Assembly: GCF_000016665.1 (NCBI RefSeq)
Contig: NC_009523.1
Location: 248,001 to 312,000 of the forward strand
Direction: 5' to 3'
Source: Roseiflexus sp. RS-1
GTDB taxonomy: Bacteria; Chloroflexota; Chloroflexia; Chloroflexales; Roseiflexaceae
Length of the DNA stretch: 64,000 bases
Shown: positions 40,700 to 56,039 of the stretch, in pieces
How the letters are laid out: each line of letters starts with the position of its first letter
How positions within the stretch are numbered: the stretch's first letter is position 1
Notes under the pieces: model-generated
Told to the model about the DNA's origin: nothing
The model's input: only the letters and a program-made list of their open reading frames with translations
The model's database searches: none
Program-made: the position numbers and the translations under genes

Positions 40700-41731
40700 T
40701 GCGCCGAGGCGGATGGGTCGGGGCGCAGCATGCCGCACAGGGGTAGATCAGTCGGGGCGCAGCATGCCGCACAGGGGTAGATCAGTGGGGGCACGGCATG
40801 CCGCACAGGGGTAGATCAGTCGGGGCACGGCATGCCGCACGGAGGCGGATCAGGTCGGGGCACGGCATGCCGTGCCCCAACGTGTTCTGAGTCAGGAAAA
40901 AGGCCTCACATCGCCGCCGGTTCTTCCTGTTCCGCCAGTTGACGCAGCACGTAGTGCAGGATGCCGCCGGGTGCGGCGACGCTGCACAGGGGTAGATCAG
41001 TGGGGGCACGGCATGCCGCACAGGGGTAGATCAGTCGGGGCACGGCATGCCGCACAGGGGTAGATCAGTCGGGGCACGGCATGCCGCACGGAGGCGGATC
41101 AGGTCGGGGCACGGCATGCCGCACGGAGGCGGATCAGGTCGGGGCACGGCATGCCGTGCCCCAACGTGTTCTGAGTCAGGAAAAAGGCCTCCCACCGCCG
41201 CCGGTTCTTCCTGTTCCGCCAGTTGACGCAGCACGTAGTGCAGGATGCCGCCGGGTGCGGCGACGCCGCACGGAGGCGGATCAGGTCGGGGCACGGCATG
41301 CCGTGCCCCAACGTGTTCTGAGTCAGGAAAAAGGCCTCCCACCGCCGCCGGTTCTTTCTGTTCCGCCAGTTGACGCAGCACGTAGTGCAGGATGCCGCCG
41401 GGTGCGGCGACGCCGCATGGGGGTAGATCAGTCGGGGCACGGCATGCCGCACAGGGGTAGATCAGTCGGGGCACGGCATGCCGCACGGGGGTAGATCAGT
41501 CGGGGCACGGCATGCCGTGCCCCAACGTGTTCTGAGTCAGGAAAAAGGCCTCACACCGCCGCCGGTTCTTTCTGTTCCGCCAGTTGACGCAGCACGTAGT
41601 GCAGGATGCCGCCGGGTGCGGCGACGCCGCACGGAGGCGGATCAGGTCGAGGCACGGCATGCCGCACAGGGGTAGATCAGTCGGGGCACGGCATGCCGTG
41701 CCCCAACGTGTTCTGAGTCAGGAAAAAGGCC
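40700..41731. repeat. Compound array containing four extra copies of the acnA 3' end
   Basis: Two unit types alternate. The short unit (about 35 bp) has GGGGTAGATCAGTCGG then GGCACGGCATGCCGCAC. The long unit (about 110 bp) has the palindrome GGCACGGCATGCCGTGCC, then AACGTGTTCTGAGTCAGG, then about 66 bp nearly identical to the last 22 codons and stop of acnA. Copies of that tail are at about 40904-40969, 41189-41253, 41336-41400 and 41550-41614; the true end of acnA is 41732-41795. Successive long units are spaced 284, 145, 215 and 181 bp, that is 145 plus about 4, 0, 2 and 1 short units. Confidence 0.93.
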
Positions 41732-44604: not shown

Positions 44605-45486
44605 ATGTCCTTCGATCTTCACCGATTGCGCATTTTTGTGGCCGTAGCGCGGGCAGGAAGTTTCACGCGCGCGGCGGCGCAGTTGCACATGGCGCAACCG
44701 ACCGTTTCGCAGCAGATCGGGGCGCTGGAAGATGCGGTCGGCGCACCGCTGATCGAACGCGGTCCTCGCCGCCTGCGGTTAACTCCGGCTGGCGAAGCGT
44801 TGTTGCCGTATGCCACGCGACTGGCGCTGCTGGCAGACGAGGCGCTCCAGGCGACACGCACGGCCGCTGGCGTTGCGGCGCACACCCTGCGGCTGGGCGT
44901 TGGTCAGACGCTGGCGACCTATCTGTTGCCGGAGTTGCTTTGCCGGTATCGGGAGCGCGCACCACACTGCCATACCCGCATCGTCACCGGTAACAGCGCC
45001 GCGTTGCTGGAACAGGTCGCCGAAGGCAGCATCGAGATCGCGCTGGTCGGTTCGCCAGCGGCGCACCCGGATGTGGTGGTGACGCCGTTCATGCAGGACC
45101 GACTGGTGGTGATTGTCGCGCCGCACGATATTTGGGCGAGTCGAGAGGCGGTCGATCTCGACGAACTGCGCGACCGTCCATTGCTGACGCGCGAGCCGGG
45201 ATCGGCGCTGCACGCGACGGTCGAGCGGTTGCTGGGGAGCGCGACGCTTGCCGGCGACACGGTGATCATGCTCGGTGAAACCGAAGCGATCAAGCGCAGC
45301 GTTGAGGTTGGGCTGGGGGTGGCGCTGATCCAGGCGATTGCGGTGCAGCGCGAGGTGGCGCTGGGACGACTGCGCGCGCTGGCGTTGCGCGGCGCCGATG
45401 ACCGGCGCACCTATGCCTGGGCGCGCCGGGCGCGTCAGTGGCTCTCTCCAGCTGCTGCGGCGCTGGTGGCGTTGCTGGGGGAATAG
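44605..45486 (+). CDS. LysR-family transcriptional regulator
   Basis: 293 residues. The N-terminal winged helix-turn-helix is FDLHRLRIFVAVARAGSF with the recognition region AAAQLHMAQPTVSQQIGALE. The rest is a periplasmic-binding-protein-like effector domain. The ATG at 44605 gives the normal LysR N-terminus; earlier starts add a few residues. Divergent from acnA, so control of aconitase (as CcpC does in Bacillus) is a reasonable inference. The final codons GAA TAG are the first six bases of an ACGGAT repeat. Confidence 0.9.
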   Translation: MSFDLHRLRIFVAVARAGSFTRAAAQLHMAQPTVSQQIGALEDAVGAPLIERGPRRLRLTPAGEALLPYATRLALLADEALQATRTAAGVAAHTLRLGVGQTLATYLLPELLCRYRERAPHCHTRIVTGNSAALLEQVAEGSIEIALVGSPAAHPDVVVTPFMQDRLVVIVAPHDIWASREAVDLDELRDRPLLTREPGSALHATVERLLGSATLAGDTVIMLGETEAIKRSVEVGLGVALIQAIAVQREVALGRLRALALRGADDRRTYAWARRARQWLSPAAAALVALLGE

Positions 45487-45638
45487 AACACAGATGGGCA
45501 CGGATGTGACGGATAGGAATAGAACACGGATTGACACGGATGTGACGGATCAGCGCGGATTAAATAAAAATATCCGTGCCCATCCGTCCAATCCGTGTGT
45601 ATCCGTGGTTTATTCCCAAAACCATCCGTGGTTTATTC
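45481..45638. repeat. ACGGAT/ATCCGT palindromic repeat, lysR-ATPase junction
   Basis: One full unit: GAATAGAACACGGATT, spaced ACGGAT hexamers, AAATAAAAATATCC at the centre, then ATCCGT hexamers and CCGTGGTTTATTC. The left end contains the lysR stop; the right end contains the DUF499 stop (TAA at 45633-45635, minus). Confidence 0.93.
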
Positions 45639-48230
45639 CCATGGCGTCGCGCCGGGGTCGATCCGTAGTGTGATCCCCATTTGCCGGAATGCTTCCATCA
45701 CCTTCTCTTCCAGTTCCTGATCGCTGAGGGCGCCGTCGCGCAGGTGCAGTGTGATCTCCATATGCGCATACTTTGTCTGGAGAAAGTGCAGCACACCCAT
45801 CAGACCGGATACCCTGCCGCGCGGGATGGTGAATGCAAGGGTGAGGGTGCGGTTCGGCGCGCTCACGGCATCGTGGCGCTGCTCTTCACCGATGGGCGGC
45901 GCCGGTTCTGGCTTAAACGTTGTGCCGGGTCCGTCGTGGATGGGGCGCGAAGAATCGCTTGCGGGCGGGTACGTTGGTGTTTCCGTCGGTTTCCGGGCGC
46001 GCTGCTCCTTGCAGAGATCGTCGCGGATGAGCACTTCGCTGTCGGCGAAACTGACGGATGGCGTTTCGTTGTAGGAGCGGCACACCGGCCGGTTTTCGTG
46101 CATGTCGCCCAGCCCGAAGAGACCTTTCTGCACCCCTTCGATGATACTCTCACGCCACGCGGATTCTGAGATAACCCGCGCTTCGCCCGGCGTCACCAGA
46201 CCGGCGCGGACGAGTTGTCCGGTTGAAACTGTGTCGCGGTCTTTCAAAAATCGTTCCCGGATTGCCAGCGGCGCGATCTTCTCCAGGATCTCGCCCTGGC
46301 TGCGCAGGTGATCGTACACCTGCCGGCTGAGCGGGCGGGTCTCGCCGTGGGTGGGTAAGCCCATATCCAGGCGCTTCCAACCCTCGCGCGCCGGCAGATA
46401 GACCTGCCGGTAGAGACGCCGCACCGCATCGCCCAGGTCGCCCTCCAGACGCTTCAGGTTCTCCCTGATCTCCCGGCGCTGCTCATCGGTCAGCTTCAGG
46501 CTGGCATCATTCTGCATGCGCTGGTATGCCAGCATCCGGCGCACCAGGACGGCAAATTGCGCCCGTTCGCTCTCCTGCGGCGTCAGGACGAAGAGGGTGT
46601 TGCGGTAGACACGCCGGGCTTCTCCTTTGGTGTCGCGCAATTCGTTCATGCGCGTCTCATCAGCGTCGGGCAGGATGATCAGTTTCAGGTCGGGCGTGTC
46701 GGGAATGTCTGCCGATCGGTCGCACCAGATGAAAACGTTCAGGGGGGCGCTGCCTGCCTGCTGGCGCAGCAATGCTTTCTCGGTCTCCTGAATCTCGCGG
46801 TCGGCGATATTCTCCATGCGGGTGAGGAGCAGGCGGTTGAGGTTTGCCTGGTTGGAGAAGAAGTATCGGTCACCCTGGTATTGCAGATAGAACAGGCGAC
46901 CTTTGAGTTTCTCGACCGCTTCGGCGACCACGGCTGCCGGGCTGCTGAGGGTGGCGGCGTTGCGCTTGATGTCGACCAGGGTCGCCCCTTTTTCGACCCC
47001 GCCGGAAAAGGAGGACATGAAGATCGCGGTTGCGGCGCGTTCGCCCAGATGCAGCCCGCGGTACGCTGAGCCGAGATCGGCGCTGACTTTGACGGCGCCG
47101 GCATCGGGCGCGGTGATGTCGGCGGCAATCACACTGTCAAACTCCGCTCCGATATGTTTGAGCAGTTCGCGCCGAATCTCGGCGTCGCTCAGGTTGATGT
47201 CCGCCAGGGAGATGAAGGGCAGGTCGCGGTCTTTGTGCGCGGCGATCACCAGCGCCAGCAGGCGCAACACGCCACGGGTGCGCTGGAAGGAGGAAAAACT
47301 GCCCCAACGCTGGTAGAGCGCGTCCACCACGTCCGGCAGGAAGGGGTACGACGCGAGAAAGCGCGCCCGGTATTCGGACGGTTCGACGCCTGCCGGCAGT
47401 AATCCTTCACGGGTTGCGTACTCCATAAATGTGTCAACCGCCTGCATCGCTTCCTGCTCTTTGATCTGGGCAAACAGGCGACGGCGGATGACGTGGGTGA
47501 TCTCGTCGTCGCGCACCGGTGCGTAAATACGCTCGACCCGCCCGGAGACGCGCTGCAACTGCTGGAACATGCGCTCGGCGCTCGGATCGTAGTGTTCGAT
47601 CAGACTGGTGGGCAGGGTGATGACCAGCACGACGCGATCAATGGCGCCGATCAGTTCGGTCAACTCCTGCATAAAGGCGATGGTTTGCGCCGCCAGGGTG
47701 CTTTCGCCGACCGGCGTGCCGGCCGCTTTGGTGACGTACTCCAGCAGTTCGTCGACGAGGATGAGCGCCGGCGCGTGGGCAGTCAGCAGCGCGCGCAGCG
47801 CCTCGCCGCGTCCGGGCGCAACCAGATCGGTGAACCGAACACGCTGACCGGTCAGTTGCTGTTCGATCTGTCCCCAGAGCGTATCGGTCGCCGCCATGGT
47901 TGTGCCCACCATCACCACCCGTCGCGCGCCCCATTCGGCTGCCTTGTGGTAGAGCGCGATCAGCGCATGGGTTTTGCCGCCGCCGAAGGGAGTCTGCAAC
48001 TGGATGACCGGATCGCCGCCCTGCCCCGCCAGGCGCTGCTGCACGACATCGAACAGGGTGCGCAGCCCGGCAGTCACGAATGTCTTCTGGAAGAACAGCG
48101 CGGGGTCGCGGTACTCGGCGACGCCGCGCCCGCGAGCGACCTCGCCCAGGTCAGCGGCGAAAACCTCCATCGTCAGGCGTCCGCGCAGAATGTCGTCGTG
48201 AGGGATGGCGATGGTGTGGAACGGTGGCAT
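45633..48230 (-). CDS. DUF499-family P-loop ATPase (BrxC/PglY-related)
   Basis: 865 residues. Walker A TPFGGGKTHAL (Gly83-Lys86) and Walker B ALILVDELLEY (Asp160-Glu161) are clear. The middle and C-terminal regions are helical (SFSGGVEKGATLVDIKRNAATL; SRQVYDHLRSQGEILEKIAP) as in COG1483/DUF499 proteins. Such ATPases accompany DUF1156 methylases and are related to BrxC/PglY of BREX; they probably drive a DNA-scanning or assembly step. The ATG at 48230 has AAGGAG 8 bp upstream; a 54-residue extension to 48392 would translate repeats and is rejected. Last gene of the operon; its Glu-stop codons lie in the repeat. Confidence 0.9.
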   Translation of the reverse strand: MPPFHTIAIPHDDILRGRLTMEVFAADLGEVARGRGVAEYRDPALFFQKTFVTAGLRTLFDVVQQRLAGQGGDPVIQLQTPFGGGKTHALIALYHKAAEWGARRVVMVGTTMAATDTLWGQIEQQLTGQRVRFTDLVAPGRGEALRALLTAHAPALILVDELLEYVTKAAGTPVGESTLAAQTIAFMQELTELIGAIDRVVLVITLPTSLIEHYDPSAERMFQQLQRVSGRVERIYAPVRDDEITHVIRRRLFAQIKEQEAMQAVDTFMEYATREGLLPAGVEPSEYRARFLASYPFLPDVVDALYQRWGSFSSFQRTRGVLRLLALVIAAHKDRDLPFISLADINLSDAEIRRELLKHIGAEFDSVIAADITAPDAGAVKVSADLGSAYRGLHLGERAATAIFMSSFSGGVEKGATLVDIKRNAATLSSPAAVVAEAVEKLKGRLFYLQYQGDRYFFSNQANLNRLLLTRMENIADREIQETEKALLRQQAGSAPLNVFIWCDRSADIPDTPDLKLIILPDADETRMNELRDTKGEARRVYRNTLFVLTPQESERAQFAVLVRRMLAYQRMQNDASLKLTDEQRREIRENLKRLEGDLGDAVRRLYRQVYLPAREGWKRLDMGLPTHGETRPLSRQVYDHLRSQGEILEKIAPLAIRERFLKDRDTVSTGQLVRAGLVTPGEARVISESAWRESIIEGVQKGLFGLGDMHENRPVCRSYNETPSVSFADSEVLIRDDLCKEQRARKPTETPTYPPASDSSRPIHDGPGTTFKPEPAPPIGEEQRHDAVSAPNRTLTLAFTIPRGRVSGLMGVLHFLQTKYAHMEITLHLRDGALSDQELEEKVMEAFRQMGITLRIDPGATPWE

Positions 48231-48249
48231 AGCGCGACTCCTTATCTTT

Positions 48250-48560
48250 ATTTTAACCACGGATGGACACGGATCAGACGGATTGCCACGGATGTTTTTA
48301 CTTTTTAATCCGTGCTCATCCGTCACATCCGTGCCAATCCGTGTTCTATTCTTAATAAACCACGGATGGACACAGATCAGACGGGTTGGCACGGATGTTT
48401 TTATTTTTTAATCCGTGCTGATCCGTCACATCCGTGCCAATCCGTGTTCTATTCCCCATCCGTGCCAGTCCGTGTTCTATTCCCCATCCGTGCCAGTCCG
48501 TGTTCTATTCCCCATCCGTGCCAGTCCGTGTTCTATTCCTCATCCGTGCTAATCCGTGTT
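48250..48560. repeat. ACGGAT/ATCCGT repeats between DUF499 and GxxExxY genes
   Basis: About 310 bp made entirely of the repeat: two palindromic units and then a 28-bp tandem repeat (three to four units starting ATTCCCCATCCGTGCCAGTC at 48451, 48479, 48507 and 48535). It runs from the stop of the GxxExxY gene to about 20 bp before the start of the ATPase gene, sparing the ribosome site. Confidence 0.92.
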
Positions 48561-48950
48561 CTATTTCTTCTTCACCTTTTTCCGGTCGTTGGTAAGAATT
48601 TTGCGCACGAAGGATGGTTTTGGTCCAAAGTTGAGTAGCAGACCAACTTCAATCTCGGTGGATTTGAGGTAGTTGAGCAGTTGTGCTTCGTGTTCAGGGC
48701 GCAAGGACTCCACGACTTTCAGTTCGACGATGATGCAGCCCGCTACGATGATGTCGGCGAAGTACTCTCCCACCAGCAAGCCATCGTAGTATACCTGGAG
48801 AGGCGCCTGTTGCTGCACAGCAAGCCCTGCTTTAGTCAGTTCATATACCAGAGCGTTTTCGTAGACCTTCTCCAGGAAACCGTGCCCCAGCGTGTTGTAA
48901 ACAGTGTAAAAGGCTTTGATGATGGCTTGCGTGATCTCCTCGTGCAGCAT
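48561..48950 (-). CDS. GxxExxY family PD-(D/E)XK protein
   Basis: 129 residues. The family motif is Gly24-Glu27-Tyr30 (GFLEKVY), followed by the nuclease-like D66 (YFADIIV) and E76-x-K78 (VELKVV). That is the PD-(D/E)XK core, so a small DNA nuclease or nuclease-fold protein; no member I know of has a settled function. The ATG at 48950 follows GAGGACGAGG. It sits inside the defence-like operon but is bounded on both sides by ACGGAT repeats, so it may be repeat cargo rather than an original operon member. Confidence 0.88.
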   Translation of the reverse strand: MLHEEITQAIIKAFYTVYNTLGHGFLEKVYENALVYELTKAGLAVQQQAPLQVYYDGLLVGEYFADIIVAGCIIVELKVVESLRPEHEAQLLNYLKSTEIEVGLLLNFGPKPSFVRKILTNDRKKVKKK

Positions 48951-48969
48951 ACCTCGTCCTCTCTTTCTT

Positions 48970-49126
48970 AATAAACCACGGATGGACACGGATCAGACGG
49001 ATTGGCACGGATGGTTTTATTGGGAATAAACCACGGATGTGCACGGATTAGACGGATTAACACGGATGGTTTTTTATTTTTAATCCGTGCTCATCCGTCA
49101 CATCCGTGTCAATCCGTGTTCTATTC
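48970..49126. repeat. ACGGAT/ATCCGT repeats between GxxExxY and methylase genes
   Basis: The spacer consists only of repeat, ending with CTATTC (GAATAG on the minus strand) directly after the methylase stop codon at 49127-49129. Confidence 0.92.
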
Positions 49127-52100
49127 CTAAAAGTCTATTCTCATTTGCGCGGCGGTCTGTTCGACCTCGGCGCGCAGGCGCTCGCGCCCGGCGAGGAAGC
49201 CGTCGAGCAGTTTCTTTTCGCGGCTCTCCACCGGCAGCGTCTCGCTGATCGCCTGCGCCACGCGGTAGAAGACCTCGCTGCGCCCGCCGGCGACCAGTGT
49301 CTGCACCAGATCGGCGCGCTTCCCCTTTTCCCACAGCAGCAGCGCACGGTGCAGCACGTCCACCAGGTCGCGCGGATCGTCCAGCTCCTCCAGCCGCCGC
49401 TCGTGCGGTCCCAGCAGGCGCACGAACTCCTTCTGCTTGCGCACCGCGCCGTGCCTGCTCCACGTCTCGGCAATGTCCAGCCCGCACGACTGCGCCAGTT
49501 TGCGCGCTTCATCGAAGGGGAGGGGCGCCTCTTTGTAGTTCCAGCGCCACAGCAGGTAGAGGCGGGTGAGCGGCGAAATCTCGGCGGCGAACCCGTTCTG
49601 CAGAATGCGCTGCACGGCGAAATCGGTCGCCAGCGCGCGCACCTCGTCGAGCAGCCGGTCGGCGCGGATCACATGCCCTTCGTAGTCGATCACCTGTTCG
49701 TAAGCGCCGAAGACCTCGATGCCGGCGCCGATGGCGGCGATGAAGAAATCGGCGCCGCCGACCCCCTCCGCCCACAGCCGGTCGAGTTTGCGGTGCATCA
49801 CCCGGCGCAACTCGGCGCGCACCTCGTTGACGAAGCCGGTGGCGCGCCGCGCCGCCTTGCGCGCCACGATGTAGATCGACGACGCCAGCGCCGCCGATTC
49901 GTTCGATCGCAGACGGGTTTGCATCTCGGTGTTGAGGGGCCAGGCGGCGTTGACGACCAGTCCCGAATCGAGCAGGGCGTTGATCACCGTCTCCCATCCG
50001 GCGGTCGATTTGTGGGCGTAGACCACCACGGCAATGCCGCCCGGTTTCAGCACTCGCGCCATCTCGCGGAAGGCCGCCGCCAGTTGCTCCTCGAAGAAGC
50101 GTTTGCCCGCCTCGAAGCCTCCCTCGCCGTGGGCATACGCCACAATCTCGCCCGCCTTGGGCGTGAGCGGCGTGGTGAACAGGTCGGGGTGGAGGTGCCC
50201 GATGCTGCGCTTGAGCCAGACGTAGAAGAAGTCGGAGAGGTAGGAGTACGGCACATTGTCGTAGTAGGGCGGGTCGGTGAGCACGGCGTCGAAGAAGCCG
50301 TCGGGGTAGGGCAGGCGCGTGGCGGAGGCATGGGTGACAGAATGAACCACGGATTGCCGCGGGTGAGCAGCAACCACGGATTGCCACGGATTGGACGGAT
50401 GGTCACGGATGAGACCGCGCGACTCTGTTCCATCCGTCTGTGTCTGCGCGCGCTCCCTGCCCGGCAGGGGAGGAATGCGGGTGAGGTGGTCGAGAACCAG
50501 ACAGATACCACTTACATCCCATTCCCCTCGAGCACCACTGAATGGGTTTATTTCACCGTAATCCCAAACCATAGGAAGAGCCTGGCGATCAAAAGCGCGT
50601 TCAAAACTCAGAACATCGCCACGCCACCTAACCAAATTGCAAGAGTAAGTTGCTAATTTGTTCACGGCTAATCCCAAATACGTCACCACCGCCTTTGCAA
50701 AGTCTTCAGGGTAGCCCTGGGCGAGCATCTGCGCGTGGGCGCGGCGCACGGCGTCGGCGAAGGTGATCAGCGCCAGCGCCTGGCGCGGGTTGAACAGGTC
50801 GCCCCAGGTTTCCAGACCGTAGCCCTGGATACGAAAACCCAGGGTGCCCTGCGGTGGCAGCGGCTCGTCCGGCATGGGTTCCATCCCCCAGGCGGTGCGC
50901 AGGCGCTCGCATGTCGCGTGCAGCGCGGCTTCGGCGGCGCGGTAGGCATCCAGATCATCTGCGGTCGGCAGGCGGTAGGTTTTGCCGCCGGACGCTCTTC
51001 CATCCGCCTCCGTGTCGGTGGTGACGACGGCGACCATGCGCTGACCCGCCCTGCCGGCGCGGAACAGGCGGCGGGTCGTGGCGGCGTCAATCGTCGCCCC
51101 GCAGACCGGACAGGTCACCACTGCGCCCCTCACCGTGCCGTGTTCGGGGTCGAAACCGGGGGGCCGGGGCGCGTACCCATCCCCCACAATCTCAAACGCG
51201 ACCGGGTTGGGATAAACCACGGATTTACACGGATCAGACGGATGTTCACGGATATTTTTATGTGATCCGTGTTCATCCGTCGCATCCGTGTCCATCCGTG
51301 TTCTATTCAAATTAACCACGGATTGGCACGATTCAGACACAGAGTCAGAATGAACCACGGATTGGCACGGATCAGACGGATGTTCACGGATATTTTTATT
51401 CCTTAATCCGTGTTCATCCGTTACATCCGTGTGTATCCGTGTTCTATTCCCCAATCCGTGTTCACCCGTTACATCCGTGTGTATCCGTGTTCTATTCCCC
51501 ACATCCGTGTCGATCTGTGTTCTCTTCACAATACAAAGCGCAACTTGTTTCCTGTCTTTTTTTGCCAGCCAGAACTGGCGCATGAGCGGGATGTCAACGC
51601 CGCAGGACGGGTTCTGGCAGGGGAGCGTGCGCGCCCAGATGTAGCCGACGACGGTGGCAGCGCCGGACGACGGGTAGAACGGCGCCAGTTCTTTGCGCGC
51701 CTCGTTCAGCACCCATTCCCCCCACTGCTTCACCGCCGCCAGCAGGGGGTTGCCCGGCGCATCCCGGCTGAACATCTCCGTCTGCCCGAAGCTTTCGGGA
51801 TGAACCACGGATTGACACGGATCGGTATGAACCACGGATTGGCACGGATCAGACGGATGGTCACGGATATTTTTCTTGAATCCGTGCCGATCCGTCCCAT
51901 CCGTGTCGATCCGTGTTCTCTTCCCCAATCCGTTCCCACCAAACCGCTGCGGGTACTCCAGGGTGGCTTTGAGGATCAGCGCGGCGACCGGGTTATAGTC
52001 GTTGGCGTAAGCGTCGCATCCCAGGCGCAGGGCTTCGAGCGGATAGGAGCCGCCGCCTGCGAACGGGTCGAGGATGCGCGGCGGCGGGACGCGCCCGGCT

Positions 52101-52447
52101 TCGATGTCGTCCACACAGACGGGACGCCCCAGTTCGGCGCTCAACCGTTCGGCGTGGGCGGCGTAGATCGCGCGGCGGGCGCGTTGCAGCAGCGGGGCGT
52201 CCAGCGCACGCTCCCAGCGGCTCAGGTCGGCGATGAACTCGCTCTGCGTCTGCCAGGCGAGCGCGTCGGCGGGCGGCGGAACGAGCGCGGCGTATGCGGT
52301 GGCGCGCGAGGCGGCCAGCGGGCGGCGCGCCCACCAGATGTGCAGCGTGCTGATGTGCCCGTGGCGAATATTCTTCTCCTTCGCCGCGTGCTGGCTCACG
52401 GCTTTGACCGGGAAGGTTTCTTCGATGAAGCGGCGGTCGTCGCGCAT
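49127..52447 (-). CDS. DUF1156 DNA adenine methyltransferase with three in-frame repeat insertions
   Basis: 1106 residues. The DUF1156 region opens FPVKAVSQHAAKEKNIRHG and HISTLHIWWARRPLAASRA. AdoMet motif I is DPFAGGGSYPLEAL (about 127-140) and catalytic motif IV is TDPPYYDN (about 722-729), defining an N6-adenine methylase of the COG1743 type. A Zn ribbon is suggested by CQNPSCG and CPVCG. Three segments, about residues 174-216, 306-412 and 666-703, are translated ACGGAT repeat (for example RTRIHTDVTDEHGL, NIREHPSDPCQSVV) and have no counterpart expected in the family. The frame stays open through all. The ATG at 52447 follows GAGGAG with 7-bp spacing. Likely modifies host DNA for the neighbouring helicase/nuclease; activity with these insertions is uncertain. 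Confidence 0.9.
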   Translation of the reverse strand: MRDDRRFIEETFPVKAVSQHAAKEKNIRHGHISTLHIWWARRPLAASRATAYAALVPPPADALAWQTQSEFIADLSRWERALDAPLLQRARRAIYAAHAERLSAELGRPVCVDDIEAGRVPPPRILDPFAGGGSYPLEALRLGCDAYANDYNPVAALILKATLEYPQRFGGNGLGKRTRIDTDGTDRHGFKKNIRDHPSDPCQSVVHTDPCQSVVHPESFGQTEMFSRDAPGNPLLAAVKQWGEWVLNEARKELAPFYPSSGAATVVGYIWARTLPCQNPSCGVDIPLMRQFWLAKKDRKQVALCIVKRTQIDTDVGNRTRIHTDVTGEHGLGNRTRIHTDVTDEHGLRNKNIREHPSDPCQSVVHSDSVSESCQSVVNLNRTRMDTDATDEHGSHKNIREHPSDPCKSVVYPNPVAFEIVGDGYAPRPPGFDPEHGTVRGAVVTCPVCGATIDAATTRRLFRAGRAGQRMVAVVTTDTEADGRASGGKTYRLPTADDLDAYRAAEAALHATCERLRTAWGMEPMPDEPLPPQGTLGFRIQGYGLETWGDLFNPRQALALITFADAVRRAHAQMLAQGYPEDFAKAVVTYLGLAVNKLATYSCNLVRWRGDVLSFERAFDRQALPMVWDYGEINPFSGARGEWDVSGICLVLDHLTRIPPLPGRERAQTQTDGTESRGLIRDHPSNPWQSVVAAHPRQSVVHSVTHASATRLPYPDGFFDAVLTDPPYYDNVPYSYLSDFFYVWLKRSIGHLHPDLFTTPLTPKAGEIVAYAHGEGGFEAGKRFFEEQLAAAFREMARVLKPGGIAVVVYAHKSTAGWETVINALLDSGLVVNAAWPLNTEMQTRLRSNESAALASSIYIVARKAARRATGFVNEVRAELRRVMHRKLDRLWAEGVGGADFFIAAIGAGIEVFGAYEQVIDYEGHVIRADRLLDEVRALATDFAVQRILQNGFAAEISPLTRLYLLWRWNYKEAPLPFDEARKLAQSCGLDIAETWSRHGAVRKQKEFVRLLGPHERRLEELDDPRDLVDVLHRALLLWEKGKRADLVQTLVAGGRSEVFYRVAQAISETLPVESREKKLLDGFLAGRERLRAEVEQTAAQMRIDF
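50341..50450. repeat. ACGGAT repeat inside methylase, insertion A
   Basis: About 110 bp with AACCACGGATTGCCACGGAT and CATCCGTCTGTGTCTG. It encodes about 37 residues just before the catalytic DPPY region. Confidence 0.85.
51212..51530. repeat. ACGGAT repeat inside methylase, insertion B
   Basis: About 320 bp, roughly three palindromic half-units plus two ATCCGT arms spaced exactly 48 bp (GTTCTATTCC at 51441 and 51489). It encodes about 106 residues without a stop. Confidence 0.92.
51801..51927. repeat. ACGGAT repeat inside methylase, insertion C
   Basis: About 127 bp. A near-complete palindromic unit between motif I and the first Zn-ribbon Cys region; encodes about 42 residues. Confidence 0.9.
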
Positions 52448-52468
52448 CAGGCGGCTCCTCAATGAGTT

Positions 52469-52694
52469 GAAACCACGGATGTCCACGGATCAGACGGTAT
52501 TTAACCACGGATGTCCACGGATCAGACGGATGTTCACGGATATTTTTATTGAGATCCGTGTTCATCCGTCACATCCGTGCTGATCCGTGTTCTATTATTT
52601 AACCACGGATTTGCACGGGTCAGACGGATTGGCGCGGATATTTTTCTTTCATCCGGGCTGATCCGTCACATCCGTGCCAATCCGTGTTCTATTC
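52469..52694. repeat. ACGGAT/ATCCGT repeats between methylase and helicase genes
   Basis: Two palindromic units. The right end, GAATAG on the minus strand (52689-52694), is the last codon and stop of the helicase gene; the left end stops about 20 bp before the methylase start. Confidence 0.93.
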
Positions 52695-55600
52695 TAAAGC
52701 ATGTGCGCGAATGTCATCGGCTGAGACCAGGTAACGAACGTCCATGCGCTCCTCTGGTTTCAGGCGCGCTGCCGGGTTCTGGATGCAGTGCAACGTCGGT
52801 TGGGGCGTGGCGGCGTCGAACACGACATACAGAAAATACTCGTCACCGAAGCGTTGCGCCTTGAACCACTCGTTGCGGGTCAACGCCACTGCGCCAGCAT
52901 CGGCGCGCCCTTTGACCTCGATATAGCGCTGCTGCCCGTCAGCCGCGCGCGAACGAATATCGAAGCCCAGATTGTCGCGCGAAACGTCTTCAGGAACGCG
53001 CCCCTGACTCCGTTCATACTCCAGCGCCACCTGCATCGCAACCCGCTCGATGTCCGGGTCGGAGAACATCTCCGCAGCGACGGGCGCCGGCACAACCCTC
53101 GCCGCGCCCAGAAAACGCGGCGTGGAGAGGGTCAGGTTGCGTTCGCGCTCCAGTGCGTTCCGCAGCGCATCCAGCGCCTGCTCATACCGTCGCTTCTGGT
53201 CTTCCTTATTGCGAATCGCCAGGTCTACCGACTCGCCCCGGTCACGGCGCTCATAGAGCCGGATCAGGTCGCCGTCCAGTCTGATGATGAGTTCCTCCAG
53301 CGACGTCAGCCCATACTTTTCCTTGATCGTCGCCTGACGTTTGCGTTCTTCCAGCAGTGCGGCGCGATACGCTTCCAGTTCGCGGAACAGCACGCCACGG
53401 GCATCGCGCTGCAACGCCTCGAGCGAGGGGAACGCGCCGTCGGGCGGTCCGCCGTGCTGCAGGTCCCACAGCAGCGTCGGGTTGACCGGCTGGATCGTTC
53501 CGCGTTGCCGGTCGGCGAACAGCACGAACAGTCGCCTGCCGGCAATCTCGCCCTTGCCATCGCGGATTTCCCCCTCGTAGAAGAGCAACGTTCCATCCAT
53601 ACCGCCGTCGGGGTCGGTGAACCGCGCGCCTTCGTGCAGCGCCGCATGCAGCGACCGCTCAACCCATGCCATCGCCGCCTCGAAGAGCGGATGACCGAAC
53701 GTCACCAGCTCCGCCTGTGCGTCGCGCATGGCGACGGTTTTATCGAACGTGATGCGCGGGTAGCGGCGGGATAACGCGCCGAACCGTTTTTTGAAGGCAT
53801 CTTCGTCGGCGATCTGGCGCAGCGGCGCCGGCACGCTCTCCAGCGCGAGAAACGGACCGGACTTCCCGCCGATCTCCCTGAGTTTTCCCTGCAACGTCTC
53901 GATCACCTGGCGGAAGAACGCTTCGGTATATTCGGGGATCAGGCGTTGCTCACGCGCCTTTTCCGCCATCTCGCGGATGCGGGTGTAATCGATGAAGCGG
54001 GTCGCCAGGCTTTCGCCGAGTTGATCGCGGATGCGGTCAAGGTATGCCGGGTCTACCCGGATATCGATCTCGCGCAGGATGTCGTCGATGTTGCGCGCGC
54101 CGGCTGCCGCCTCCAGGAGCAGTTGCCCCAGGTCTTTCCCGTGGATCAGATCGCCCAGCACATCGAAGACCTTATCGCTGCCGAGCGCCTGGCGGATCTC
54201 TTCCAGTTTGCGAAACACCGCCTGCCACACCCGTCCCTCGCGCGTGTCGGTCGCCACCAGGTTGAACACGAAGACTTCGCGCGTCTGACCGTAGCGGTGA
54301 ATGCGCCCCATGCGCTGTTCCAGGCGGTTGGGATTCCAGGGAATATCGTAGTTGATCATCAGGTGACAGAACTGGAGATTGATCCCTTCGCCGGCCGCCT
54401 CGGTCGCCACCATGATCTGCGCCTCGTTCTTGAAGGTTTTCTCAGCCTGAATGCGCGACGCCAGATCCATCCCGCCATGGATGGTGCAGACGGAGTAGCC
54501 CCAGAGCCGCACGTTTTTCTCCAGGTGCTCCAGCGTATCGCGCGATTCGGTGAAGATCAGGATTTTCTCGCCAGGGTGATTCTGGTTCAACTGTTCCAGG
54601 GCAGCGCGCAGATGGCGCAGTTTCGCCTCGACCGGCGGCGCAGCATTCACGATGGCGCGCGCCTGAGCGATGAGCGCATCCAGACTGGCCACCTCCTGCT
54701 CCAGTTCACGCCGGTTTTCCGCCACGCTCAGCGTTTCCCAAGTCTCCTCCCGTCGCCAGCGTTCTTCCTCGCTCAGGTCGTCCAGCTCCTCGACATCGTA
54801 GCTTTCGTCGGCGGTGCGCTGGCGCTGCGGCGCGCCCTGGAGCAGTTCCTCCAGCCGACGCTTGCGCCGTTCAAGCGAGCGCAACAGCGCATACGTGCTG
54901 GATGCCAGCCGACGTTGCAGAATGACCAGCGCAAAGGCGACGTTGCGGCGTTTCTCGCTGGTGAGCGCTTTATTGTACTGCGCATTCACATAGCGCGACA
55001 GGTCGTTGTACAACCGCTTTTCGTCTTCGCTCTCCACCCCCAGGTTAAACTCGATCGTCGCCACATGGCGCGGCAAAAAGAGCGGCTTGCCGTCAAAATC
55101 CTTCAAGTCCTCCTTCACCCGTCGAATGAACAGCGGATTGTCGTGCTGACGGATCGACTCGGCCAGCATATCGGATGTTGCAAAAAACCCCGGTTCGAGC
55201 AGATCGAGGAACAGGCGGAAGTTCTCCGGGTCGCCGCGGTGCGGCGTCGCGGTCAGAAACAGCAGGTGCGTGCAGATCTCCGAGAGGCGCTCGCCCAGGC
55301 GATAGCGGTCGGTCTTGCTCAGATTGTCGCCGTAGCGATACGCCGCCATCTTGTGGGCCTCATCGACGATGATCAGGTCGTACTGCACCGCCGCAAGACC
55401 GGTCAGAACCTCTTCCTGCTTGGCGAAGTCTATCGAGGTAATCACCTGTGATTCGCGCGCCCAGACATTCTGACCGTAGAATGCGCCCAGGGTAGCGCGA
55501 TCCACAACGACAAAATCTTCCTCGAAACGATCCTTCAGTTCACGTCGCCACTGGTCTTTGAGGTGTCCGGGAGCGACGATCAGGATGCGGGTCGCCAGAT

Positions 55601-56039
55601 GGCGCAGTTTCAATTCCTTAATGATCAGCCCGGCCATAATCGTCTTGCCGGCGCCCGGATCGTCGGCGATCAGGAACCGAATACGCGGCAGTTTGAGCGC
55701 ATGCCCGTAGACGGCTTCGATCTGATGCGGCAGCGGGTCTACCTTGGAGGTGTGCATCGCCAGCAGCGGGTCATAGAGCGATGCCAGGCGATAGCGACAG
55801 GCTTCAATTGCCAGGAAAAAGTGACGGGGATCGGCGCCGAAATGGGATGCACCCCGTTCCGATGCAATGGCGCGCAGTTCGGCGCGGCTCAGCCACTGGT
55901 CGATATGCTGGCGCGAGCGCACCGTTGCGCCGACGATGCGCACATAGTCGCCCATATCTTCGACCATATCGACCTGGATCGGCTCGGGCCAGAGCGGACC
56001 TCGAAGAATGCTGCCGGGGGTGATGGACGACGAATCCAT
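52689..56039 (-). CDS. SNF2-type helicase with C-terminal DUF3883 domain
   Basis: 1116 residues. Walker A DDPGAGKTIMAG (Lys132), DEAH box IIVDEAHK (226-229), LLFLTATPHRGD, and helicase C-domain motifs ATEAAGEGINLQF and QRMGRIHRYGQ place it in the SNF2/Rad54-like group. Long helical linkers follow. The last ~120 residues contain NLGFDIRSRAADGQQRYIEVKG, the DUF3883 pattern, which resembles a PD-(D/E)XK core (D...ExK). ATP-driven movement on DNA coupled to cleavage or recognition is the likely role. The start has AGGAGACGCGCATG. First gene of the four-gene minus-strand operon. Confidence 0.93.
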   Translation of the reverse strand: MDSSSITPGSILRGPLWPEPIQVDMVEDMGDYVRIVGATVRSRQHIDQWLSRAELRAIASERGASHFGADPRHFFLAIEACRYRLASLYDPLLAMHTSKVDPLPHQIEAVYGHALKLPRIRFLIADDPGAGKTIMAGLIIKELKLRHLATRILIVAPGHLKDQWRRELKDRFEEDFVVVDRATLGAFYGQNVWARESQVITSIDFAKQEEVLTGLAAVQYDLIIVDEAHKMAAYRYGDNLSKTDRYRLGERLSEICTHLLFLTATPHRGDPENFRLFLDLLEPGFFATSDMLAESIRQHDNPLFIRRVKEDLKDFDGKPLFLPRHVATIEFNLGVESEDEKRLYNDLSRYVNAQYNKALTSEKRRNVAFALVILQRRLASSTYALLRSLERRKRRLEELLQGAPQRQRTADESYDVEELDDLSEEERWRREETWETLSVAENRRELEQEVASLDALIAQARAIVNAAPPVEAKLRHLRAALEQLNQNHPGEKILIFTESRDTLEHLEKNVRLWGYSVCTIHGGMDLASRIQAEKTFKNEAQIMVATEAAGEGINLQFCHLMINYDIPWNPNRLEQRMGRIHRYGQTREVFVFNLVATDTREGRVWQAVFRKLEEIRQALGSDKVFDVLGDLIHGKDLGQLLLEAAAGARNIDDILREIDIRVDPAYLDRIRDQLGESLATRFIDYTRIREMAEKAREQRLIPEYTEAFFRQVIETLQGKLREIGGKSGPFLALESVPAPLRQIADEDAFKKRFGALSRRYPRITFDKTVAMRDAQAELVTFGHPLFEAAMAWVERSLHAALHEGARFTDPDGGMDGTLLFYEGEIRDGKGEIAGRRLFVLFADRQRGTIQPVNPTLLWDLQHGGPPDGAFPSLEALQRDARGVLFRELEAYRAALLEERKRQATIKEKYGLTSLEELIIRLDGDLIRLYERRDRGESVDLAIRNKEDQKRRYEQALDALRNALERERNLTLSTPRFLGAARVVPAPVAAEMFSDPDIERVAMQVALEYERSQGRVPEDVSRDNLGFDIRSRAADGQQRYIEVKGRADAGAVALTRNEWFKAQRFGDEYFLYVVFDAATPQPTLHCIQNPAARLKPEERMDVRYLVSADDIRAHALE

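Follow-up and report, generated by a model that had tools for sequence, protein, structure and literature searches.

A small predicted PD-(D/E)XK nuclease gene bracketed by palindromic word arrays suggests an undescribed mobile element whose enzyme recognizes its own ends

REP and REPIN sequences with their RAYT (Y1 tyrosine) transposases form a system in which dispersed palindromes bracket a single-copy gene, and in which the repeat and the enzyme co-evolve. Homing endonucleases of the PD-(D/E)XK type are small, site-specific nucleases encoded in the DNA that is being spread. Two further classes are treated in passages of PMC10969869: MITEs, which are short non-autonomous inverted-repeat elements with some copies lying within genes, and the Rickettsia palindromic elements, which are palindromes of ∼100–150 bp that stand in frame in protein genes. 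GxxExxY is mentioned in a passage of PMC8934634, and PARCEL palindromes are, in at least part of that paper, the topic of PMC2996958. Palindromes composed of word arrays, such as those described here, occur in many environmental bacteria, and literature searches gave no explanation for them.

The window analyzed here is a stretch of 64,000 nucleotides from the genome of Roseiflexus sp. RS-1. Its GxxExxY gene lies at 48561..48950 on the minus strand and encodes a protein of 129 aa counted from the ATG, with the reading frame open further, to a GTG at 48989. The original prediction described a PD-(D/E)XK gene with repeats on both sides, and this was confirmed: the gene is intact, as is its PD-(D/E)XK core (GFLEKVY motif, D66, E76, and K78), and it stands between complete palindromes of the seven-nucleotide word CACGGAT (repeat features are given without strand). 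Beyond its stop codon are two complete palindromes, at 48250..48353 (four words per arm and an A/T loop) and 48353..48458, together with tandem partial arms of 28-nt period (48457..48558) that reach the stop codon, and on the 5′ side are a single arm (48968..49022) and another complete palindrome (49022..49129). The complete palindromes of the window are ∼100 nt long, with four words per arm at a spacing of 10-9-10 and an A/T-rich loop, and their third word is GACGGAT in both arms. The TAG stop codon itself falls within the outermost part of the arm next to it (GAATAG-ACACGGAT type), both at window 48551–48563 and at a congener locus (L056).

The gene is flanked by genes for a DUF499 ATPase (45633..48230) and a DUF1156 methyltransferase (49127..52486), and a gene for a DrmD-like SNF2 helicase with a NOV_C domain lies at 52689..56039, all three on the minus strand. 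This set (45633–56039) resembles anti-phage families, with all of its members under the curated NCBIfam cut-offs. Gene-less copies of the repeat are found as a partial arm with a complete palindrome at 45480..45618, and as a partial arm with two palindromes between the DUF1156 and helicase genes (52465..52697). Three further blocks stand in frame within the DUF1156 gene and are missing or shortened in the homologues of two other genomes (G206 and G260): gene-less arms at 50342..50512 (aa 659–715; ∼20 aa in the G206 homologue), two palindromes with partial arms at 51209..51526 (aa 321–426; almost absent from homologues), and a palindrome with a partial arm at 51755..51937 (aa 184–244; absent from homologues). 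A second repetitive stretch of the window, at 41031–41494, contains open frames that overlap across the two strands, and certain peptide motifs recur in it.

Matches to the CACGGATNNNCACGGAT pattern with at most one mismatch numbered 45 in the window, where shuffled sequences lead one to expect 0.03, and all of them lay at 45489–52686. The claim that the repeat is confined to the neighborhood of the gene therefore holds within the window, but it does not hold genome-wide: the genome (5,801,598 bases, one contig) contains 156 matches (81 + 75; control, 0), so that 111 copies lie far from the GxxExxY gene, of which the window's own is the only one in the whole genome. In the phylum, GxxExxY was present in 75 of 400 sampled genomes. 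A strict rule that repeat-bearing genomes always carry the gene had to be rejected, because 18 of the 27 repeat-positive genomes do so (compared with 57 of the 373 others) and 9 of the 27 do not. Two genomes are rich in the repeat with no GxxExxY gene detected. In one of them (G330), which is 94–98% identical here, the gene is missing because the contigs (C74 and C27) break inside the repeats at this very site, which removes exactly the gene-bearing stretch; since draft genomes break in these repeats, a fragmented assembly in which the gene is not found says little about its absence. The other (G395), with 72 repeat matches and no GxxExxY gene found, remains a counter-example.

We also counted word pairs in the 75 GxxExxY genomes, for 62 of which at least one gene was fetched. 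The median count of CACAGAG was 28 in the 11 genomes with a gene in CACAGAG and 0 in the 51 others (p = 3 × 10⁻⁶); the corresponding values were 138 (n = 3) and 1 (n = 59) for CGCAGAT (p = 5 × 10⁻³), and 66 (n = 5) and 0 (n = 57) for CACGGAT (p = 1 × 10⁻⁴). The genome-wide copy number of a word tends to follow the word of the resident GxxExxY gene, with the exception of four genomes (G372, G337, G260, and G318), in which a word is abundant and no matching gene was detected, and whose genes were fetched in part.

Analogous arrays were found at the 31 Chloroflexota loci examined first (30 from the phylum sample and the window's own), with words such as CACAGAG, CACGGAG, CACCGAG, CGCAGAT, CGCGAAT, and ACAGGAT, among others. 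When 80 loci from many phyla were added, these being the best 80 of 546 relatives, nearly all of the top words fitted one grammar, C[AG]CN[AG]A[GTC], plus ACAGGAT. A gene was scored as lying in an array if the sequence up to 400 nt from the matched domain had four or more copies of a grammar word, counted over both strands. In the first set, this was the case for 76 of 111 GxxExxY genes and for 19 of the 372 remaining ORFs at these loci, and for 10 of the 111 genes when reversed words were used as a control. Because the grammar was fixed after these 111 loci had been seen, the fair tests are a hold-out from fresh loci, in which 50 of 76 GxxExxY genes and 6 of 204 control ORFs lay in arrays (p = 3.4 × 10⁻²⁹), and a third batch, in which 10 of 20 genes did. 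The expectation that GxxExxY genes adjoin palindromic repeats beyond chance was thus upheld. In total, 136 of 208 distinct genes lay in arrays and the other 72 fell under the array threshold, with 9 of the 208 having < 150 nt of flank on one side. A word-free statistic gave a similar picture, in that some 7-mer occurred at least seven times in the flanks of 37 of 111 GxxExxY genes and of 3 of 372 control ORFs. A stricter detector of triple arms with a spacing of 9–12 caught only 15 of the 31 loci because many words are spaced by 8. Genes for four-helix bundles (S23-like) were considered as co-inhabitants of the palindromes and rejected, with 2 of 30 lying in arrays. At three loci (L212, L238, and L146), GxxExxY genes lie between dense arrays of near-grammar words (CACGGAA, CACGAAA, and CGGATTA). 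Further short words outside the grammar, at similar spacing, were seen in the intergenic regions of L292, of L312–L323, and of orthologous sites (among them CCCTCATC, TTCTATG, and TTTTGACTTC), so that further repeat–enzyme pairs perhaps exist.

The arrays have a regular layout around the gene. The density of own words was 1.95 per 100 nt over the first 100 nt from the gene and 0.04 at 2–4 kb, and copies were found on both sides in 135 of the 136 array-bearing genes. Words on the left flank were mostly forward (388 forward, 111 reverse) and those on the right flank mostly reversed (107 forward, 414 reverse), which places the gene in the loop of a palindrome. Neighboring words were spaced by 8–10 nt in 365 of 383 pairs, with G-ending words preferring 8–9 and T-ending words 9–10.

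The protein of the window is a clear member of TIGR04256 (143.6 bits, cut-off 35) and of PF13366 (PDDEXK_3; 142.4 bits, cut-off 22), with the whole domain covered in each case; the TIGR04256/PF13366 family model carries a name only. PF13366 is its only Pfam match, and there is no Y1/HUH tyrosine transposase. An AlphaFold2 model (mean pLDDT 92.2, pTM 0.84) has a compact PD-(D/E)XK fold, and in 106 sequences D66 and E76 are invariant and K78 is conserved in at least 90%, giving an alpha/beta core with D…ExK. The search for a sequence relative with a solved structure found none (best E-value, 0.32); the nearest solved folds, with modest scores and resemblance in fold only, are Cas4 (SSO0001), Hjc resolvases, lambda exonuclease, and type II restriction enzymes. 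These are enzymes of DNA, which speaks against a reading in which the palindromes act as RNA, that is, as transcribed hairpins bound or cut by GxxExxY. The complete palindromes do fold into regular stems (−46 to −59 kcal/mol), as that reading would have it. In the folded strand the words are paired and the 2–3 nt spacers mostly unpaired, so it is the words, rather than a perfect stem, that look conserved. Copies are found in both orientations and also within a reading frame, and we regard the RNA reading as highly improbable.

Strong support for recognition of the word came from comparing single protein columns with single letters of the word in 130 aligned proteins that have a C-type word (numbering of the 129-aa protein). 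At word position 5, G occurs with Thr7 (52 of 70; Ser in 15) and A with Ser, Ala, Val, or Gly (59 of 60); at position 4, A occurs with Asn or Asp at residue 4 (55 of 72), and G mostly with Lys, Glu, Ala, or Arg (37 of 43). Position 7 is T with Asn93 (41 of 47) and G with Thr or Ser (68 of 81). Position 2 goes with the length of the C-terminal tail, which is longer where the letter is G (3 of 58 gapped) and short where it is A (49 of 72 gapped). In the structural model, the four positions of this candidate code map to the beginning of helix 1, close to where helix 3 ends, and behind the last strand. We then formed non-overlapping pairs of similar proteins with unlike letters at a given word position and scored whether the residue had changed in the predicted direction, in the opposite direction, or not at all. 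The counts were 33/0/16 for position 5 and Thr7, 23/0/10 for position 4 and residue 4, 29/1/20 for position 2 and the C-terminal tail, and 13/0/14 for position 7 and Asn93; among pairs with the same letter, the residue differed in 6 of 61, 6 of 53, 10 of 59, and 3 of 58, respectively. Mismatched controls were weaker, some being mildly associated (predicted/opposite: position 5 and residue 4, 17/6; position 4 and Thr7, 13/4; position 2 and residue 4, 16/4). On strongly supported branches alone, nearly all changes were in the predicted direction, with counts too few for significance. A rule learned from Chloroflexota, when applied to 46 genes of other phyla, was right for 41 at position 7 (baseline 27), 35 at position 5 (28), and 35 at position 2 (24), and gave no gain at position 4 (34 of 46 right; baseline 34).

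The word also followed the protein tree. In a tree of 126 proteins, which is short (116 columns) and in which 55 of 123 inner branches are open, the word changed 58 times, compared with 98.3 ± 2.4 after shuffling and 97.0 ± 2.4 after shuffling within phyla; position 7 alone changed 5 times, compared with 37.3. The word tracks the protein clade across phyla and not the host genome. Paralogues of a single genome lie in different words that fit their clades: CACAGAG and CACGAAG in G335; CACGGAT and CACGAAG in G316; CACAGAT and CACGAAG in G274; and CGCGGAT, CGCAAAG, and CACAAAG in G061. The paralogues of G102 also lie in different words. Such tracking across phyla would also arise from linkage only, with the gene and the repeats traveling in one piece of DNA and the protein not reading the repeat, and the residue–letter columns were chosen from many columns. 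Against linkage, particular letters follow particular residues with almost no reversals, and pairs with the same letter rarely differ (Thr7, 6/61 above). Moreover, these residues are not encoded by the repeat: words overlap each codon in at most one gene, and when the 18 genes that have a word close to their 3′ end were left out, position 2 gave 26/0/15. Gene-less copies of a word are abundant genome-wide where the matching gene is present, and we consider linkage alone very unlikely.

The residue–letter coupling is the best support for the view that the protein recognizes its own word, which, as far as can be read from sequences, is very probably the case. The odds are about even for a more specific proposal, in which residues 4 and 7, where helix 1 begins, would each specify one letter, as would residue 93 and the C-terminal tail, making a readable code of a cross-domain class of selfish elements; a new word would arise when single residues change and palindromes already present are then taken over. 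If letters are specified by residues in this way, the repeats spread by a gene would be predictable from its protein sequence. A word that shifts in step with particular protein residues suggests an undescribed mobile element, in many bacteria and one archaeon, whose enzyme recognizes its own ends.

A comparison of sites indicated that GxxExxY and the word palindromes probably form a mobile unit. Among the pairs listed, similar proteins had the same word and unrelated flanks at L038/L211 (84%), L218/L042 (83%), L126/L117 (81%; a Methanosarcinales archaeon and a Brocadiaceae bacterium), and L111/L107 (76%; Verrucomicrobia and a proteobacterial MAG). One orthologous site, with flanks 90–92% identical, holds a CACGAAT element at two loci (L093 and L245) and a CACAGAT element at four (L220, L095, L141, and L227); the group is taken for Herpetosiphon, L141 being so named. 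The CACAGAT-bearing loci retain an outer TTCGTGGC scrap, as if the CACAGAT cassette had replaced the CACGAAT one inside the palindrome at this putative Herpetosiphon site. At the L292 site, where the gene lies in a CGCAGAG palindrome, one genome (G110) shares the ends of the palindrome and lacks the gene, another (G274) has a possible relic of the left end, and three (G043, G078, and G102) have neither gene nor palindrome. The site of L032 (in G134) is empty in G052 and has only CACAGAG remnants in G118, and the flanks of L231, whose insert also holds a response-regulator-like gene, are 24–33 bp apart in G198 and G267. The empty-site genomes for L231 and L032 are only 70–79% identical and thus too distant for base-exact junctions, and a search of 17 pairs of related loci for a clean new palindrome insertion with target duplication gave three indels, none of them clean. 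A scan of viral contigs gave one relative and plasmid records gave 8 of 72,556, so viruses and plasmids look like minor routes of spread.

Some of the same observations bear on a benefit to the host, under which a domesticated GxxExxY would use the arrays in chromosome organization, transcription termination, or self-regulation and the repeats would spread by other means. The intergenic site between DUF1156 and DUF499 is kept in a congener (G316; protein 79% identical), and many genomes have dozens of copies, which are points in favor of such a benefit. It accords poorly with the patchy distribution in the phylum, the finding that the several paralogues of a genome can differ in their words, the cross-domain similarity without homology of the flanks, the empty and swapped sites, and the invariant or near-invariant D-E-K nuclease core, and host benefit is, in our judgment, an unlikely account.

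Taken as a whole, the data are best read as a selfish element whose PD-(D/E)XK nuclease recognizes its own phased word arrays, a reading to which we assign a probability of roughly 0.6. GxxExxY would serve a miniature mobile element as its enzyme, and this element would end in inverted arrays of one 7-nt word spaced 8–10 nt from start to start, with the gene sitting within the loop of a long imperfect palindrome and separate parts of the protein reading separate letters of the word. Short-loop palindromes without the gene would be non-autonomous copies. The predicted nuclease may nick or cut the word arrays, either as duplex or as extruded hairpin, and repair may then copy the palindrome, either alone or together with the gene, into the array in a homing-like manner. 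Copying of this homing type is the most likely way of spreading, which we put forward tentatively and at less than even odds. The original proposal of a self-spreading repeat-and-nuclease unit with non-autonomous copies is partly supported: the same-site comparisons fit it, and we infer the rest, namely direct binding, cutting of DNA by the protein, and movement through copying by repair.

No paper on such an element, nor on a link between TIGR04256/PF13366 and a word palindrome, was returned by literature searches; an unpublished note by the TIGR04256 curators is possible. In searches with repeat strings, six strings were found in no paper, and two 17-mers of the CACGGAT type were not seen among the papers listed, shorter ones occurring in unrelated work. 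A nuclease link with letter-by-letter covariation would give these repeats a likely source, would give a function to a protein family known only by its motif, and would provide a small collection of naturally occurring variants in DNA recognition. The reading is directly testable, as the word is predicted by the protein sequence.

Compared with MITEs, the gene-less palindromes are likewise short, with terminal inverted repeats and many copies, some of them inside genes; they differ in that no transposase family is involved and the ends are word arrays, and no target-site duplication was found here, where insertions between closely related sequences were never clean enough. The three in-frame blocks of the DUF1156 gene, which homologues lack or have in shorter form, recall the Rickettsia palindromic elements, although the sequence is another one and some copies here have a cognate nuclease gene within their loop. 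As with PD-(D/E)XK homing endonucleases, a small predicted nuclease is encoded inside the DNA that it would spread, and the same-site exchange would be compatible with a homing cut of an empty cognate site. Unlike those enzymes, the GxxExxY gene is in no intron or intein but stands by itself, with a start and a stop of its own, flanked by the genes for DUF1156 and DUF499; there are several sites per genome, and the target appears to be the repeat itself. The system resembles REP/RAYT in that the gene is bracketed by dispersed palindromes and in the co-evolution of repeat and enzyme, whereas the fold is PD-(D/E)XK and not HUH/Y1, and the repeat consists of a 7-nt word in phased arrays, with letters that differ from lineage to lineage. 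Pending a bench test, we rate GxxExxY with its word arrays as a kind of its own, because the Y1 transposase that defines REP/RAYT is missing and the unit does not belong with the homing elements of introns or inteins.
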